A DNA stretch of 39,794 nt, from contig PWYL01000057.1 in assembly GCA_003568315.1 (NCBI GenBank), positions 1-39,794 of the forward strand, in the 5' to 3' direction. Position 1 is the first letter of the stretch; each line of letters opens with the position of its first letter. Below, in pieces: positions 20,910-28,557 of the stretch. Source of the DNA: Mollicutes bacterium. GTDB taxonomy: Bacteria > Bacillota_I > Bacilli_A > Izemoplasmatales > Izemoplasmataceae. A model generated the notes under the pieces. That model was not told the origin of the DNA and searched no databases. It saw only the letters and a list, made by a program, of their open reading frames with translations. Made by a program: the position numbers and the translations under genes.

Positions 20910-20915
20910 ACGTAT

Positions 20916-21126
20916 AAATCGAAGACGAAGACGAGTACGCGGCCAGGGTCCGCAAAAAGAGAGTTTGTGGTCGGTGAGAACAAACCGGCCCCGCCGCCGA
21001 AGCCACTTCCGAGAGACGGCGAACCCGTCCGCTTCAAGAGCGTTAACATGGAGAGAGCCATACTTGTGGAATTAAGGTGGTACCACGGTGACAGTCGTCC
21101 TTATCGTTTCTTTAAGGGCGTTTTTT
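20916..21126 (+). promoter_or_regulatory. T-box leader controlling alaS
   Basis: The leader has the Stem I element AGTA (20934-20937), an AGAGAG distal stem (GTTTG...CAAAC), and GAAGCCACTT. By analogy with known T-boxes the latter puts the specifier GCC (Ala) at 21002-21004. The conserved T-box AAGGTGGTACCACGG lies at 21074-21088. A terminator follows: CGTCCTTA (21096-21103) pairs with TAAGGGCG (21113-21120), then six T. Uncharged tRNA-Ala would favour the antiterminator and read-through into the whole alaS operon. Confidence 0.93.
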
Positions 21127-21150: not shown

Positions 21151-23790
21151 ATGAGACATCTGAATGCGAACGAGATCCGCGAAATCTGGCGGCGTTTCTT
21201 CGAGGAGCGCGTCCACCGGATCGAGGAAAGTGCGGGACTTGTGCCCGTGAATGATCCGACCCTCCTTTTCATCAATGCGGGGATAGCCCCCCTCAAGGGC
21301 TATTTCGATGGGACCCGGGTCCCGAAGAACCCCCGTCTGGCGAACATCCAGAAATGCATCCGCACCAGCGACATCGAGGAGGTCGGCAAGACGGCCCGGC
21401 ACCACACGTTCTTCGAGATGCTGGGGAATTTTTCCATCGGCGACTATTTCCGCGATGAAGCCATCGAGTGGGCCTATGAGATCCTCACCGACAAGAAATA
21501 TTACGGAATGGATTCCGAAAGGCTCTATGTGACGATCTATCTCACGGACGAAGAGACGAAAGAGAAATGGAAAGAGATCGGTATCGCCGCCGAACGGATC
21601 ATCGCGACCGAGGCGAACTTCTGGGAGATCGGCGAAGGCCCTTCCGGCCCCTGTACGGAAATCTTCTACGACCGTGGCGACGATTTCGGCGAGCATGACC
21701 TCGACCTCTTGCGGAAAGACATCGACAACGACCGTTTTGTCGAAATCTGGAACATCGTCTTCTCGCAGTTCAACGCCAAAGAGGGCATCCCCCGCGAGGA
21801 ATACCCCGAACTCCCCAACAAGAATATCGACACGGGCATGGGGCTCGAACGGATGGCCGCCATCCTGCAAGGGGCGAAGACCAACTTCGAGACCGACCTC
21901 TTTCTGCCCTTGATCGAATCGATCGCCGAAAAGAGCGGCGTGCCCTACAAAGGTCAAAAGAGCCATAAGATCATCGCCGACCACATCCGGAGCGTGGTCT
22001 TCGCCGTCGGAGACGGCGCCACCTTCGGCAACGAAGGCAGAGGCTACGTCCTCAGGCGACTCCTCCGTCGCGCGATCAAACACGGACGACAACTCGGCAT
22101 CGAGGGTCCTTTCCTCGTCGCGCTCGCCCAAAAGGTCGTCGCGATGATGAAGGAGGCCTATCCGAACCTCGAAAAGAGTAGCGAATTCATCGAGAAGATG
22201 GTCCTCAAAGAAGAGGAACAATTCCTCGAGACTCTGAAAGACGGCGAGAACATCCTCAAAGAGATCATGCAAAAAGGTGACGGCATCATCTCCGGCGCCG
22301 ACGCCTTCAAACTCTACGACACCTACGGATTCCCCCTCGAACTCACCGAGGAATACGCCGAGGCCGAAGGCCTCACGGTTGATGGGGAAGGCTTCAAAGA
22401 ACACATGGCGATGCAGAAGGAACGCGCTCGCAAGGCGCGGGAGAAGACCACCTCGATGGCCATGCAGAATGCCGAATTCCTCGCTTTCAAAGCGGAAAGC
22501 GAATTCATCGGCTATCGGACGCTTTCCGCCGAAAGCGAGATCGTCAAAGCCTTCAACGAGGGCGTCGTCACGGCGAAAACCCCTTTCTATGCCGAAAGCG
22601 GGGGTCAGCTCGCCGACCAAGGCACCATCACCAGAAACGGCATGACCTTCGCCGTCGAGGATGTGCAGAGGCTCCCCAACGGGCAGCATTACCACATCAT
22701 CGGCGAACACGACCTCAAAGAGGGCGACACCGTCCACCTCCAAGTCGACGAGCACGCGAGAAGAAGGACCATGGCCCACCATTCGGCCACCCACCTTCTC
22801 TACAGCGGCCTCCGGCGACTCCTCGGCGAGCACATCGGCCAACACGGAAGCCTCGTCGGCCCCGACTATCTCCGCTTCGATTTCAACCATCACGAATTCC
22901 CCGCCGACGAGACGCTCCTCGCCTTGGAGCGCCATGTCAACGAAAAAATCGCCGAAGACATCGAGGTCGCCTTCGAGGAGGGCACTATCGACGAAGCGCA
23001 AGAACGCGGCGCCATCGCCGAGTTCGGCGAGAAGTATGAAGACACCGTCCGCATGGTGAACATGGGCGAGACCCTCGACCTTTGCGGCGGGACACACGTC
23101 GAGAGGACTGCGGAGATCGGCAGCGTCGCCATCGTGAGCATCGAGAGCAAGGGTTCGGGGATCTATAGGATCATCGCTCTCGCCGGCGAGCGGGTGGATG
23201 CCGCCGAAGAATTCCTCGGTGGCTTCCTCGAGAATCTCCGCCACCTCGAGAACAAGGCCGCTTCCATCCTCGAAGAAGCCCGCTCGGAAGGCATCGAACT
23301 CACCTTCGACAAGGGCGGCGAATTCCAATTCGAAGGAAGCTATAACGATGTCATCCGCCTCAGGAAGAGGCTTTCGAAGATGCAGCGGAACGTGCGCGCT
23401 CTCGAGAAGGAATTCGAAGAAAAACGGAAGCAGAGACGTCTCGCCGACCTCGACGAATATCTCGAACAAAAGGACGAACAAGGCAATCTCGTCTTGAAGA
23501 CGGAAGGGATGGACACCGAGACGTTGAAATCCTTGGCCGACAGGTTGATGGAGAACCTCCAAGAAGGTGTCGTTTTCCTCGACAACCGTAGGGACGACAA
23601 GCTCGTCTTCATCTGCAAATCCCTTGGGTCCGTCCATGCGGGCAATCTCGTGAGAGAAGCCGCGAAAATCGCCGGAGGCGGTGGAGGTGGACGTCCCGAT
23701 TTCGCCCAGGCCGGTGCGAAAGATGTCGAAAAACTCGACGAGACCTTGCGTTTCGTGAAGGAGAAGCTACGTGAAGATCCTGGCGCTTGA
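21151..23790 (+). CDS. alaS: Alanyl-tRNA synthetase
   Basis: This 879-residue class II enzyme charges tRNA-Ala and edits mischarged Ser/Gly. The aminoacylation core is at the N-terminus (FFEERVHRIEESAGLVPVND; RTSDIEEVGKTARHHTFFEM). The editing site has H544-x3-H548 (HHSATHLL) and C645-G-G-T-H649. The C-terminal DHHA1 domain has GGGGGRPDFAQAGAKD. Full length for bacteria. ATG 21151 follows AAGGGGAG at nine bases. The last 20 bases overlap the ruvX start. The T-box upstream gives tRNA-Ala-responsive control. Confidence 0.98.
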   Translation: MRHLNANEIREIWRRFFEERVHRIEESAGLVPVNDPTLLFINAGIAPLKGYFDGTRVPKNPRLANIQKCIRTSDIEEVGKTARHHTFFEMLGNFSIGDYFRDEAIEWAYEILTDKKYYGMDSERLYVTIYLTDEETKEKWKEIGIAAERIIATEANFWEIGEGPSGPCTEIFYDRGDDFGEHDLDLLRKDIDNDRFVEIWNIVFSQFNAKEGIPREEYPELPNKNIDTGMGLERMAAILQGAKTNFETDLFLPLIESIAEKSGVPYKGQKSHKIIADHIRSVVFAVGDGATFGNEGRGYVLRRLLRRAIKHGRQLGIEGPFLVALAQKVVAMMKEAYPNLEKSSEFIEKMVLKEEEQFLETLKDGENILKEIMQKGDGIISGADAFKLYDTYGFPLELTEEYAEAEGLTVDGEGFKEHMAMQKERARKAREKTTSMAMQNAEFLAFKAESEFIGYRTLSAESEIVKAFNEGVVTAKTPFYAESGGQLADQGTITRNGMTFAVEDVQRLPNGQHYHIIGEHDLKEGDTVHLQVDEHARRRTMAHHSATHLLYSGLRRLLGEHIGQHGSLVGPDYLRFDFNHHEFPADETLLALERHVNEKIAEDIEVAFEEGTIDEAQERGAIAEFGEKYEDTVRMVNMGETLDLCGGTHVERTAEIGSVAIVSIESKGSGIYRIIALAGERVDAAEEFLGGFLENLRHLENKAASILEEARSEGIELTFDKGGEFQFEGSYNDVIRLRKRLSKMQRNVRALEKEFEEKRKQRRLADLDEYLEQKDEQGNLVLKTEGMDTETLKSLADRLMENLQEGVVFLDNRRDDKLVFICKSLGSVHAGNLVREAAKIAGGGGGGRPDFAQAGAKDVEKLDETLRFVKEKLREDPGA

Positions 23791-25085: not shown

Positions 25086-25941
25086 CCATCTGTCCGACCT
25101 CCTCGAAAAGGAAGTCGACGGCATCATCGTCGGCGTGGAAGGATTCTCCGTGCGCATGAAGGAGAATGTCGCCCCTTCCGCCTTGGCAATGCTCGCCGCG
25201 AAGACGAAAAGGGCGGACAAGAGACTCTGGCTGAATCTGAACGCTTTCATCCATGAAACCGCCCTGGATGCTTTGGAGGTTTTTTTAGGACAAATTGCCG
25301 AACTTCCTATCGACGGTGTGCTCTTTGCCGATTTCGCCATCATGCGTCTTGCCGAGAAGAAAGGACTCGTTTCGCGACTCGTCTATCACGCCGAAACAAG
25401 CCCGACATTCGCAGAGGATGTCCGTTTTTTCGAAAGAGCGGGTGTCCAAGCTGTCGTTCTTGGCCGGGAACTCACCATCAAATCCATGGAGACCATCGCC
25501 GCCAAGACCGAGATCCCCCTCGTATTCGTCGGTCACGGTCGCTTGAACATGTTCCATTCGCGGCGGCGGCTCTTATCCAACTATTTCGCCATTACGGAAT
25601 CGGATGATGAAAAAGGAATGCCCGAAGACAGTTTCACCTTGCGAGAGGAGAGTCGTAACGAGCATTATCCCGTGTATGAGGATATCCACGGCACCCACAT
25701 CTTCCGCGATTCTCCCACGCAGAGTTTCACCGTGTGGGAACGTTTGGAAAAGATTCTTTCCTTCTTCATCGTGGATGGTCTCTTCTATGATGAAAGAAGA
25801 CTTCGGGAAATCGTCGACGATTGTATCGCCGTCCAAAAGGGCGCAAGGGGTGGAGACATCGCCAAGAAGTATCCGGACCACGACGAGGGCTTTTTCTTCC
25901 GAGAGACCTTCGCCAAGGAAGAGGAGGAGAAGAAACGATGA
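25057..25941 (+). CDS. trhP1: U32 family protein, TrhP1-like (tRNA U34 hydroxylation)
   Basis: This 294-residue protein belongs to the peptidase U32 family in its short form (Bacillus YrrN). YrrN/TrhP1 and YrrO/TrhP2 together take part in prephenate-dependent 5-hydroxyuridine formation at tRNA position 34. Where the long U32 member has cysteines (MCASYSGRC), this one reads GRLNMFHSRRRLLSNYF with none, so it probably has no Fe-S site of its own. ATG 25057 follows AAGGGGG, inside the end of trmR. The stop overlaps trhP2 (ATGA). A role as partner of TrhP2 is an inference from synteny. Confidence 0.85.
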   Translation: MELFVKTSADHLSDLLEKEVDGIIVGVEGFSVRMKENVAPSALAMLAAKTKRADKRLWLNLNAFIHETALDALEVFLGQIAELPIDGVLFADFAIMRLAEKKGLVSRLVYHAETSPTFAEDVRFFERAGVQAVVLGRELTIKSMETIAAKTEIPLVFVGHGRLNMFHSRRRLLSNYFAITESDDEKGMPEDSFTLREESRNEHYPVYEDIHGTHIFRDSPTQSFTVWERLEKILSFFIVDGLFYDERRLREIVDDCIAVQKGARGGDIAKKYPDHDEGFFFRETFAKEEEEKKR

Positions 25942-27122
25942 GACGCGTAGAACTCCTCGCTCCGGCGGGAGACCTTCTCAAGTTGAAAATCGCCCTCCAT
26001 TACGGTGCGGATGCCGTCTATCTCGGCGGCACCGAGTATTCACTCCGCGCCCGGGCGTCGAATTTCACCCTGCAAGACATCGAAAAGGGAGTCCGTTTCG
26101 CGCACCGGTCGGGACGGAAGGTCTATGTGGCGGTGAACGCCTTCTTCCATCCGGAGGATGCCAAAGGACTCCCCGGATATCTGAAAAAGCTCGAAGCCAT
26201 CGGCGTTGACGCTTTGATCGTGGCTTCTTCCGGTGCGGCATCCTTGGTGGGACAACACACCTCTCTTCCTTTCCACATCTCCACCCAGCAATCGACAACG
26301 AACAGCGAGGCTGTCCGCTTCTGGGAGGGAAGAGGCGCCGGACGCACCATTCTCGCCCGCGAACTCACCATGGATGAACTGGAAAGACTCCGGAAAGCGA
26401 CCGACGCGGAACTCGAGGTCTTCATCCACGGCGGCATGTGCGCCTCCTATTCGGGCCGATGCACCCTCTCGAACCACATGACCCACCGCGATGCCAACCG
26501 GGGCGGTTGCGCCCATTCCTGCCGTTGGGACTACGACCTCTATGCCATGAATGACAAATTGGACATAGAGACGCCCTTCTCTTTGGGATCCAAGGACCTT
26601 TGTGCTGTGCGGGAAGTCCCGAGACTCATCGGGATGGGTATCGACGCGTTGAAGATCGAAGGGCGCATGAAGAGCATCCACTACATCGCCACCGTCGTGA
26701 ACGTCTACCGGCGACTCATCGATGCCGTTCTGCAAGATGATCCCATCGATTTCGCCGCCTTGGAAGAAGAAATCGCCAAAGCCGAGAACCGGCCGACGGG
26801 CCAAGGATTCCTCAAAGGTTCCCCCTCTCACACCGAACAGCTCTACAACCTCCGAAGCGAACCGGTGAACAAAGTGTTTTTGGGTATTGTCAAGGCCTAT
26901 GACGAAAAACGGGAAGAAGCCGTGATCGATGTCAGGAACCGTTTCTCCGCGGGTGACACCCTCGAGATCTTGACCCCCGCGGGCCCGAGCGCCCCCTTCC
27001 GGGTGGAATCCCTCTTCGACGAAGAGGGATATCCCCTCCAGACGGCCCGTCATCCCCGCGAGAGGATTCGCTTGAAGACCCCGCGGAAAGTGGAGCCATA
27101 CGACCTTCTCCGTCGCGTCTGA
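25938..27122 (+). CDS. trhP2: U32 family protein, TrhP2-like (tRNA U34 hydroxylation)
   Basis: This 394-residue U32 protein matches Bacillus YrrO. The barrel starts with VELLAPAGDLLKLKIALHYG, and HGGMCASYSGRCTLSNHM is the U32 signature. GGCAHSC supplies further cysteines, so four clustered Cys can hold an Fe-S cluster. GIDALKIEGRMKS is typical, and a C-terminal beta-barrel domain (about 310-394) completes it. ATG 25938 follows GGAGGAG and overlaps the trhP1 stop. It is the last gene of the alaS operon as far as I can see. The old peptidase label for this family is probably misleading here. Confidence 0.9.
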   Translation: MRRVELLAPAGDLLKLKIALHYGADAVYLGGTEYSLRARASNFTLQDIEKGVRFAHRSGRKVYVAVNAFFHPEDAKGLPGYLKKLEAIGVDALIVASSGAASLVGQHTSLPFHISTQQSTTNSEAVRFWEGRGAGRTILARELTMDELERLRKATDAELEVFIHGGMCASYSGRCTLSNHMTHRDANRGGCAHSCRWDYDLYAMNDKLDIETPFSLGSKDLCAVREVPRLIGMGIDALKIEGRMKSIHYIATVVNVYRRLIDAVLQDDPIDFAALEEEIAKAENRPTGQGFLKGSPSHTEQLYNLRSEPVNKVFLGIVKAYDEKREEAVIDVRNRFSAGDTLEILTPAGPSAPFRVESLFDEEGYPLQTARHPRERIRLKTPRKVEPYDLLRRV

Positions 27123-27152
27123 AGGTTATGGGCGATATTTTACGGAATACTC

Positions 27153-27181
27153 TTGGCGGAACGCGCGCTTTATGGTAGAAT
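27153..27181 (+). promoter_or_regulatory. Promoter upstream of the greA leader
   Basis: TTGGCG (27153-27158) and TAGAAT (27176-27181) are 17 bases apart, with TG two bases before the -10 box (an extended -10). The greA start is about 178 bases downstream, leaving a long transcribed leader. Confidence 0.6.
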
Positions 27182-27187
27182 GTGTTC

Positions 27188-27345
27188 GCAAGCAGGCCCT
27201 CTTGTCCGTACAGCCCTTCTGACGGACGGGGGTGCTCTTATTTATATACATACGCAACATAAGCTTCGGAACCCAATAGACCGAACCCCCGCTTCTCACA
27301 CTCCAGTGTCAAATGCGTTGAGGCGCGGATGGTCTCCAAAGAACA
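27188..27345 (+). ncRNA. Structured leader or small RNA upstream of greA (unidentified)
   Basis: No ORF with a ribosome-binding site fills this stretch. GTCCGT (27204-27209) pairs with ACGGAC (27222-27227), with an inner CAG/CTG stem and a five-base loop. CGGGGGT (27227-27233) is complementary to ACCCCCG (27285-27291), TTCGG (27265) to CCGAA (27281), and ACACTCCAGTGT is a short palindrome (27298-27309). Some of these pairings exclude each other, as in a switch. An interrupted T-rich tract (27237-27246) follows the first hairpin. It could be an attenuator, a 6S-like RNA or a riboswitch; I recognise none with confidence. Confidence 0.4.
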
Positions 27346-27358
27346 AGGAGGCACACCC

Positions 27359-27829
27359 ATGGAGAACAATTCCCACAAGCTCACCCAGAAAGGGATCGAC
27401 AAACTGAAAGGCGAACTCGAAAGACTCAAGACCGTCGAGAGGGACCGTGTACTCGAGGCGCTTCGTGAAGCCCGTTCGCAGGGCGATCTGAGCGAGAACG
27501 CCGATTATGACACCGCCCGTTCCGACCAGGCCCGCATCGAGACCCGCATCAAGGAAATCGAGAACATCCTGAAACACGCCGAGCTCATCACGGATGACCG
27601 CACCAACAACCGCGTGAGCATCGGCAAGACCGTCACCTTGAAGATCAACGACCAAAAACCCGAGGACTACAACATCGTCGGTTCCCTCGAGGCCGACCCC
27701 TTCGACAAGAAAATCTCCAACGAATCCCCGATCGGCAAGGCCGTCATCGGCGGCAAGAAGGGCGACAAGGTCCGAGCGAAGACCGCCGCGAACAAAGAGA
27801 CCGAGATCGAGATTCTGAACGTGAAATGA
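27359..27829 (+). CDS. greA: Transcription elongation factor GreA
   Basis: This 156-residue protein rescues backtracked RNA polymerase by stimulating cleavage of the nascent transcript. The N-terminal coiled coil has the acidic tip (SQGDLSENADYDTARSDQ) that reaches the active site. The C-terminal FKBP-like domain ends with SPIGKAVIGGKKGD. ATG 27359 follows AAGGAGG; the frame is open ten codons further upstream without a ribosome-binding site. A terminator starts at its stop codon. Position after the trhP genes is as in Bacillus, although udk is absent between them. Confidence 0.97.
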   Translation: MENNSHKLTQKGIDKLKGELERLKTVERDRVLEALREARSQGDLSENADYDTARSDQARIETRIKEIENILKHAELITDDRTNNRVSIGKTVTLKINDQKPEDYNIVGSLEADPFDKKISNESPIGKAVIGGKKGDKVRAKTAANKETEIEILNVK

Positions 27830-27851
27830 GAATGGTCCTCCATTCTTTTTT
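27829..27851 (+). terminator. Terminator at the end of greA
   Basis: AGAATGG (27829-27835) pairs with CCATTCT (27840-27846) around TCCT, and six T follow. The stem begins on the last base of the stop codon. Confidence 0.8.
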
Positions 27852-27873
27852 CATTCGCTAGGAGGGATTGTCC

Positions 27874-28557
27874 ATGAGGATCGGCGTACTTTTGGCCATG
27901 GATGAAGAACTCGAAGCCTTTAGACAGACACTCGCCGATGTCCGCGAGGAGCCATTTCTCCAAGGACGGCTTGTCTCGGGGACAATCAAAGGAAACGAGG
28001 TGCTCGCCTTGAAAAGCGGCATCGGCAAGGTGCATGCCGCCCGTACGGCCGCACTCTTCATCGAAAGGAAGCGACCGGATCTTGTCGTGAGCACAGGTAT
28101 CGCGGGTGGCGTCGAAAGCGGCCTTTTCCGTGTCGTGCTTGCCGAAGGCGCACTCCAGCACGATGTCGACATCACCCCTTACGGGTATGAACCCGGCGAG
28201 ATTCCCGGTCTCGATGTCGTGTTCCCTGTCGAGAAGTCTTTTCGGAAAAAAGCGGCGGAGGCCCTGCGGAAGGAAGGCGTCCCTTTTGATGGGGGCATCA
28301 TCGCGAGCGGGGACACGTTCATGCGCGACCGCTCCCCTTTGCGTCCTTTCGAGAAGGACCGGCTGATTTCCGCTTGCGACATGGAAAGCGCGGCCATCGC
28401 CCAAGTGGCATCACTCGCGCACACGCCCTTTTTGATTGTCCGGTCGGTCTCCGATTGTCTGGAGGCCGAAGACCAACTCGAAGAAAGCGGCCAACGCATA
28501 GAAAAAGCCGCGAAGACGGCCGCGGAAGCCCTCGCCGTGGTGATACGCGCTTTATGA
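27874..28557 (+). CDS. mtnN: 5'-methylthioadenosine/S-adenosylhomocysteine nucleosidase
   Basis: This 227-residue enzyme hydrolyses MTA and SAH, by-products of SAM use, to free adenine. The N-terminal IGVLLAMDEELEAF contains the catalytic Glu region, STGIAGGV is the ribose/purine-site loop, and DMESAAIAQVA and RSVSDCL hold the conserved Glu and catalytic Asp. ATG 27874 follows AGGAGGG. It would detoxify the SAH made by trmR and rsmH, among other enzymes. The stop overlaps the next gene as ATGA. Confidence 0.95.
   Translation: MRIGVLLAMDEELEAFRQTLADVREEPFLQGRLVSGTIKGNEVLALKSGIGKVHAARTAALFIERKRPDLVVSTGIAGGVESGLFRVVLAEGALQHDVDITPYGYEPGEIPGLDVVFPVEKSFRKKAAEALRKEGVPFDGGIIASGDTFMRDRSPLRPFEKDRLISACDMESAAIAQVASLAHTPFLIVRSVSDCLEAEDQLEESGQRIEKAAKTAAEALAVVIRAL

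Follow-up and report, generated by a model that had tools for sequence, protein, structure and literature searches.

Control of greA through its own leader has been described for Escherichia coli. According to the parts of the report used here, E. coli greA has two promoters, a terminator in the leader passes about one-third of transcripts, short RNAs of 37 to 59 bases are found, and the greA AUG lies at +150 of the GraL leader (PMC6829880). In the same parts of that report, GreA lowers its own expression via the leader in vivo but not in vitro, and GraL acts in trans as well (PMC6829880). For bacilli, the portion used here of the work by Naville and Gautheret (2010) gives a predicted premature terminator 5' of greA and reports an antiterminator (PMC2965389).

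The greA leader considered here belongs to an uncultured Mollicutes bacterium of the Izemoplasmataceae and lies in a window of 39,794 nucleotides, the whole stretch of DNA that was analyzed (contig PWYL01000057.1, positions 1 to 39,794, forward strand). The host genome measures 1.41 Mb and is 96.55% complete, and the closest relatives of its GreA come from MAGs named Mollicutes bacterium or Candidatus Izimaplasma/Izemoplasmatales, several of which carry isolate names that suggest sediment. Genes near the leader encode two U32-type proteins, GreA, and an MTA/SAH nucleosidase. For both U32-type proteins the top-scoring model was trhP, yet the scores stayed under the trhP cut-off. The intergenic gap between the adjoining U32 gene (stop 27122) and greA (ATG 27359) is 236 bases, and, as read from the sequence, the leader is 5' of greA on the same strand (Table 1). 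The gap of the sister species (contig PUKL01000056.1) is 230 bases and aligns with that of the window; statements on conservation compare these two sequences only. The long TTG ORF of the adjoining U32 gene is probably too long at 25821-25937. Its start is likely ATG 25938, which is found in both species, since in the sister a stop interrupts the frame ahead of codon 40. A terminator-like hairpin with a T run (27830-27851) follows directly 3' of greA, and the sister has one too. Elsewhere in the window, a T-box leader (20913-21105; 95.5 bits), whose terminator score at 21096-21120 is good, stands ahead of an ORF at 21151-23790 that resembles alaS.

Like the E. coli leader in the parts of the report used here (PMC6829880), the present one is situated 5' of greA and combines a promoter, an early hairpin with a U-rich tail, and a long untranslated spacer. 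It differs in having about 8 bases 5' of the hairpin, versus 19 in the corresponding part of the E. coli account, in its neighbor gene, in its weaker tail, and in its terminator score (-19.7 in the window and -26.0 in the sister, versus 8.5 for the E. coli greA leader in the same computation). It also lacks a match to RF01769 (cut-off, 60 bits) in window or sister up to an E value of 10; the K-12 leader, used as a positive control, scored 127.5 bits. By analogy, the leader may work like GraL while not being a member of the RF01769 sequence family. The greA leader of bacilli described by Naville and Gautheret is alike, at the level of description, in its predicted terminator ahead of greA. Of the 50 distinct loci whose gap before greA was measured, 44 have at most 77 bases there, so that most loci offer little space for a leader of that type. 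Our literature search did not find this greA leader described; the kind of control is known for greA, and this instance is apparently new, at least to us.

Table 1. Features of the greA leader, with positions in the window
Feature	Position	Strand	Basis or comparison with the sister species
Extended -10 promoter, TTGGCG-17-TAGAAT, TG at 27173-27174	27153..27181	+	Promoter scan; 1/29 sites differs from sister
Constrained block: promoter and first ~70 transcribed bases	27153..27257	+	7/105 sites differ, versus 99/238 fourfold sites
Weak early hairpin GCAAG/CUUGU, antiterminator candidate; excludes lower part of terminator-like stem	27188..27205	+	Nascent-RNA folds
Terminator-like hairpin (upper part 27204-27227)	27196..27235	+	Fold; 14/15 modelled pairs same in both species, 1 broken in sister
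U-rich tail TCTTATTTATATACA	27236..27250	+	Same in both species; tail score 2.62
Unconstrained leader spacer, with ACCCCCG (27285-27291) and small stems	27258..27344	+	34/79 aligned sites differ; 11 gap columns
Usual greA promoter place in most relatives	27304..27336	+	No recognisable promoter; in both species the best match is no better than chance
Shine-Dalgarno of greA, AAGGAGG	27345..27351	+	Read from sequence; kept in sister
greA	27359..27829	+	NF001263, 185.3 bits versus cut-off of 145

Constraint on the promoter and early leader

The scan of positions 26900-28100 returned a single promoter-like site, against a mean of 0.3 in shuffled sequence, and this site bears out the extended -10 promoter that the preliminary description had placed ahead of the leader. 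Transcription would start near 27188, so that the leader would measure about 170 bases.

The promoter and early leader (27153-27257) were significantly more conserved than fourfold sites pooled from both flanking genes, with the U32 gene read from ATG 25938 (P = 5e-12). The same was true of the transcribed part (27188-27257), in which 6 of 70 sites differed (P = 5e-8), and positions 27236-27257 differed at 1 of 22 sites. Use of the over-long TTG ORF of the U32 gene changed the pooled count to 102/250 and left the outcome the same. Compared with the fourfold sites of greA alone (16/60), the block was again more conserved (P = 7e-4), and the result for the transcribed part was weaker (P = 0.009). 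Constraint stops at 27257, slightly 3' of the tail, and positions 27258-27344 have changed at the fourfold rate (P = 0.90). The leader is constrained, yet its important part is shorter than first drawn. The two further small stems proposed earlier fall in the drifting portion and are not upheld.

No credible ORF had been seen in the leader, and none emerged here, as no start within 27183-27358 combines a Shine-Dalgarno-like motif with a frame kept in the sister. ATG 27329, the only start that has such a motif, shares the greA frame and is missing in the sister. A leader peptide was considered and rejected: the two starts that the species have in common, TTG 27202 and GTG 27232, both lack a Shine-Dalgarno motif and open frames that diverge. 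In the GTG 27232 frame, 7 of the first 9 residues are the same in both species. The frame opened by ATG 27172 runs into a stop at 27193 in the sister, as judged by eye.

Terminator-like hairpin and alternative pairings

The hairpin first recognized at 27204-27227 is present and forms the top of a larger stem (27196-27235) followed by the tail. The first 59 leader bases of the window folded with a z score of -2.56, and 2 of 200 shuffles were equally stable; in the sister, the z score was -0.53, with 54 of 200 shuffles equally stable. Terminator strength was scored for hairpin and tail together with the d'Aubenton-Carafa formula and its usual cut-off of 0. Both leaders fall under this cut-off. 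The window score of -19.7 was reached by none of 60 and none of 200 dinucleotide shuffles, and in the sister, which scored -26.0, 15 of 200 shuffled versions of the sister sequence did as well. As 15 shuffles reach this score and 54 are as stable, the sister terminator does not exceed chance.

Controls for this score were of our own choosing and comprised the ends after greA in both species, the second tRNA, the T-box region, and six inner gene ends. The presumed true terminators scored 1.2 (window) and -0.6 (sister) after greA, 24.0 after the second tRNA, and 6.5 in the T-box region. Four of the six inner gene ends, all in the window, scored from -65 to -90, and the other two had no candidate. 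The window leader thus falls between the inner gene ends and the presumed true terminators (-0.6 to 24.0). Its tail contains few U for a terminator, and the tail score is likewise lower than those at presumed true terminators (4.57 to 4.92). Overall, hairpin and tail are terminator-like but weak, chiefly owing to the tail, and are at chance level in the sister.

A covariance check had been suggested for the leader; it was run and yielded neither a family match nor covariation between the two species. All modelled pairs but the broken one are identical (14 of 15), in a structure that was derived from the window fold and does not include the pair 27209-27222. In the predicted folds, changes at 27209, 27210, and 27222 swap U27209-A27222 for G27210-C27222, a single event outside the pair count.

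Two mutually exclusive pairings had been proposed on the basis of CGGGGGT (27227-27233) and ACCCCCG (27285-27291). Both motifs are there and form 6 of 7 pairs in the minimum-energy fold, but the pairing is not conserved in the sister, and this particular switch is not kept. The entire leader is also not unusually stable (z score, -1.33; equalled by 25 of 200 shuffles). A different exclusive pairing, between 27188-27192 and 27201-27205, is possible, though weak, in both species according to folding models. In the window, this early hairpin is part of the best fold of nascent chains of 19 to 37 bases (-2.5 kcal/mol up to 34 bases). In the sister, it is part of the best fold at 19 to 25 bases (-3.3 kcal/mol) and again at 37 to 43 bases, while a different fold is best at 28 to 34 bases. 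Folds of the growing chain predict that the early hairpin gives way as soon as the main hairpin has its 3' arm exposed.

The preliminary description of a promoter-driven structured leader, possibly an attenuator, stands, apart from the CGGGGGT/ACCCCCG switch. Our preferred reading, held tentatively and with slightly less than even confidence, is a leaky greA attenuator of the GraL type. RNA polymerase would initiate near 27188, and the weak 5' hairpin (27188-27205) would form first, to be replaced by the strong one (27196-27235) as polymerase arrives at TCTTATTTATATACA. At the tail, some polymerases would pause and release an RNA of about 50 to 65 bases, and others would continue into greA. 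Since paused and backtracked polymerase is what GreA acts on, read-through could be set by the GreA level, in line with what was reported for GraL in vivo.

The weak tail and the chance-level terminator score of the sister (15 of 200 shuffles) would also be expected of a hairpin that does not terminate at all, that is, a plain 5' untranslated region (UTR) element, either an mRNA-protecting stem or a pause, located 3' of a relocated greA promoter. Stabilizers are typically 5' hairpins close to the start. However, a stabilizer needs neither a fixed tail nor fixed bases up to 27257, and the near-invariance of 27236-27257 is at odds with it. We consider this explanation unlikely, although it deserves to be taken seriously.

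Ownership of the promoter and nature of the conserved unit

A survey of promoters ahead of greA covered 55 distinct loci. In 42 of them, an extended -10 (TGNTANNNT, with 4 or more of 6 positions matching) occurs no more than 60 bases from the start of greA, and each of the 42 has one at -27 to -45; window and sister are among the 13 loci with none at this distance. In this survey, starts were picked by script, the gap was measured to the nearest stop-to-stop frame of at least 80 codons, and rows whose 60 pre-greA bases were identical to those of an earlier row were removed, which left the 55. A looser score for -35 and -10, covering 54 of these loci, was at least 9 in 43 of them; window and sister each scored 7, a value also seen at three other loci. 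When the upstream bases of these two species were shuffled, 52% (window) and 30% (sister) of the shuffles equalled this proximal score. The old promoter may have been shifted by an insertion, or a new one may have taken its place; the motif GTGTCA (27306-27311), at the -35 place of the relatives, may by eye be a remnant of it. A second promoter in TTATTTATATACAT was rejected as a poor match, judged by eye only. As neither window nor sister has a recognizable nearer promoter, greA is most likely transcribed from the 27153 promoter, which would place the hairpin in the greA 5' UTR. greA may also be read through from the U32 operon.

The conserved unit, a promoter and about 70 bases that close with a terminator-like structure ahead of a drifting spacer, is also what an independent gene for a trans-acting small RNA would look like, having a promoter and a weak terminator of its own and merely located 5' of greA. 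GraL likewise works in trans according to the parts of the report used here (PMC6829880). In that case, however, greA would be left with no recognizable promoter unless transcription of the U32 operon extends into it. The genome also contains no second copy: the search found two further matches only, of 29 and 18 bases (E values of 0.08 and 0.27). A separate small RNA gene appears improbable.

Promoter and inverted repeat are conserved jointly, and DNA and RNA function are inseparable from two sequences; the block could accordingly work as double-stranded DNA, with a regulator site over the inverted repeat 3' of the start. A site limited to the repeat would leave the conserved tail unexplained, and 4 of the 7 changes in the block (27209, 27210, 27222, and 27226) are inside the repeat. 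We regard a DNA site as very improbable.

A riboswitch or a 6S-like RNA had been offered as further options for a structured leader with no ORF of its own. No covariance model of the known riboswitch classes in Rfam 15 matched the leader, nor did that of 6S RNA (RF00013), and Rfam searches of the leader in both species up to an E value of 10 returned nothing except one chance-level match each to an unrelated eukaryotic family. The constrained RNA of about 70 bases with one main hairpin would leave little room for an aptamer. Although 6S RNA resembles the leader in being short, structured, and transcribed from a promoter of its own, the genome carries a full-length 6S candidate on another contig, slightly under the cut-off (C26:23605-23786; 44.8 bits versus 46.4). 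A new riboswitch or 6S-like RNA in this leader is scarcely to be expected. The 6S candidate is the only RF00013 match in the genome at an E value of 0.001. Matches at that level occur in 7 of 26 genomes searched, none of them over the cut-off, so 6S RNA may be under-annotated in this order.

Origin of the leader and its implications

Sequences resembling the leader were confined to the window and its sister. In a blastn search of 27145-27262 against 49 family genomes, its own included, these two were followed by a next-best match of 26 bases (E value, 0.0086), and a two-sequence covariance model returned the same two only at an E value of up to 0.1 among the family genomes, with the stricter filters that apply when more than 40 genomes are searched. 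Phage and plasmid collections gave no match at an E value of 0.01, and viral contigs contained no exact match to a 24-base core. In the other four members of the genus, the gap before greA is 62, 62, 62, and 34 bases. Many relatives have a gene between U32 and greA that is presumably udk. The possibility that the long gap is a remnant of this gene was rejected, as five such proteins had no match in the gap of either species. A greA locus of the Erysipelotrichaceae (L055) has a 152-base gap that contains a promoter-like site (at -86) and, by eye, a small hairpin, and is perhaps a separate greA leader.

This distribution makes the leader look like a recent, lineage-specific gain. In the ancestor of the two species, a short distance between promoter and greA, with the -10 at 27 to 45 bases before the ATG, would have been replaced by a roughly 170-base leader, in which the first 70 bases would have come to hold a hairpin with a U-rich tail. 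The more far-reaching proposal is that an attenuator with GreA feedback has newly arisen in one genus of the Izemoplasmatales, as an independent re-invention of the GraL circuit seen soon after its origin. Taken as a whole, we consider this proposal quite unlikely. If it holds, early-hairpin control of greA arose more than once and far from the Enterobacteria, and such a repeated origin would hint that the action of GreA on stalled polymerase favors feedback of this kind. The relatives without the leader would make the gain traceable. For annotation, the locus would be described as a short constrained greA leader that is neither a known riboswitch nor 6S RNA.
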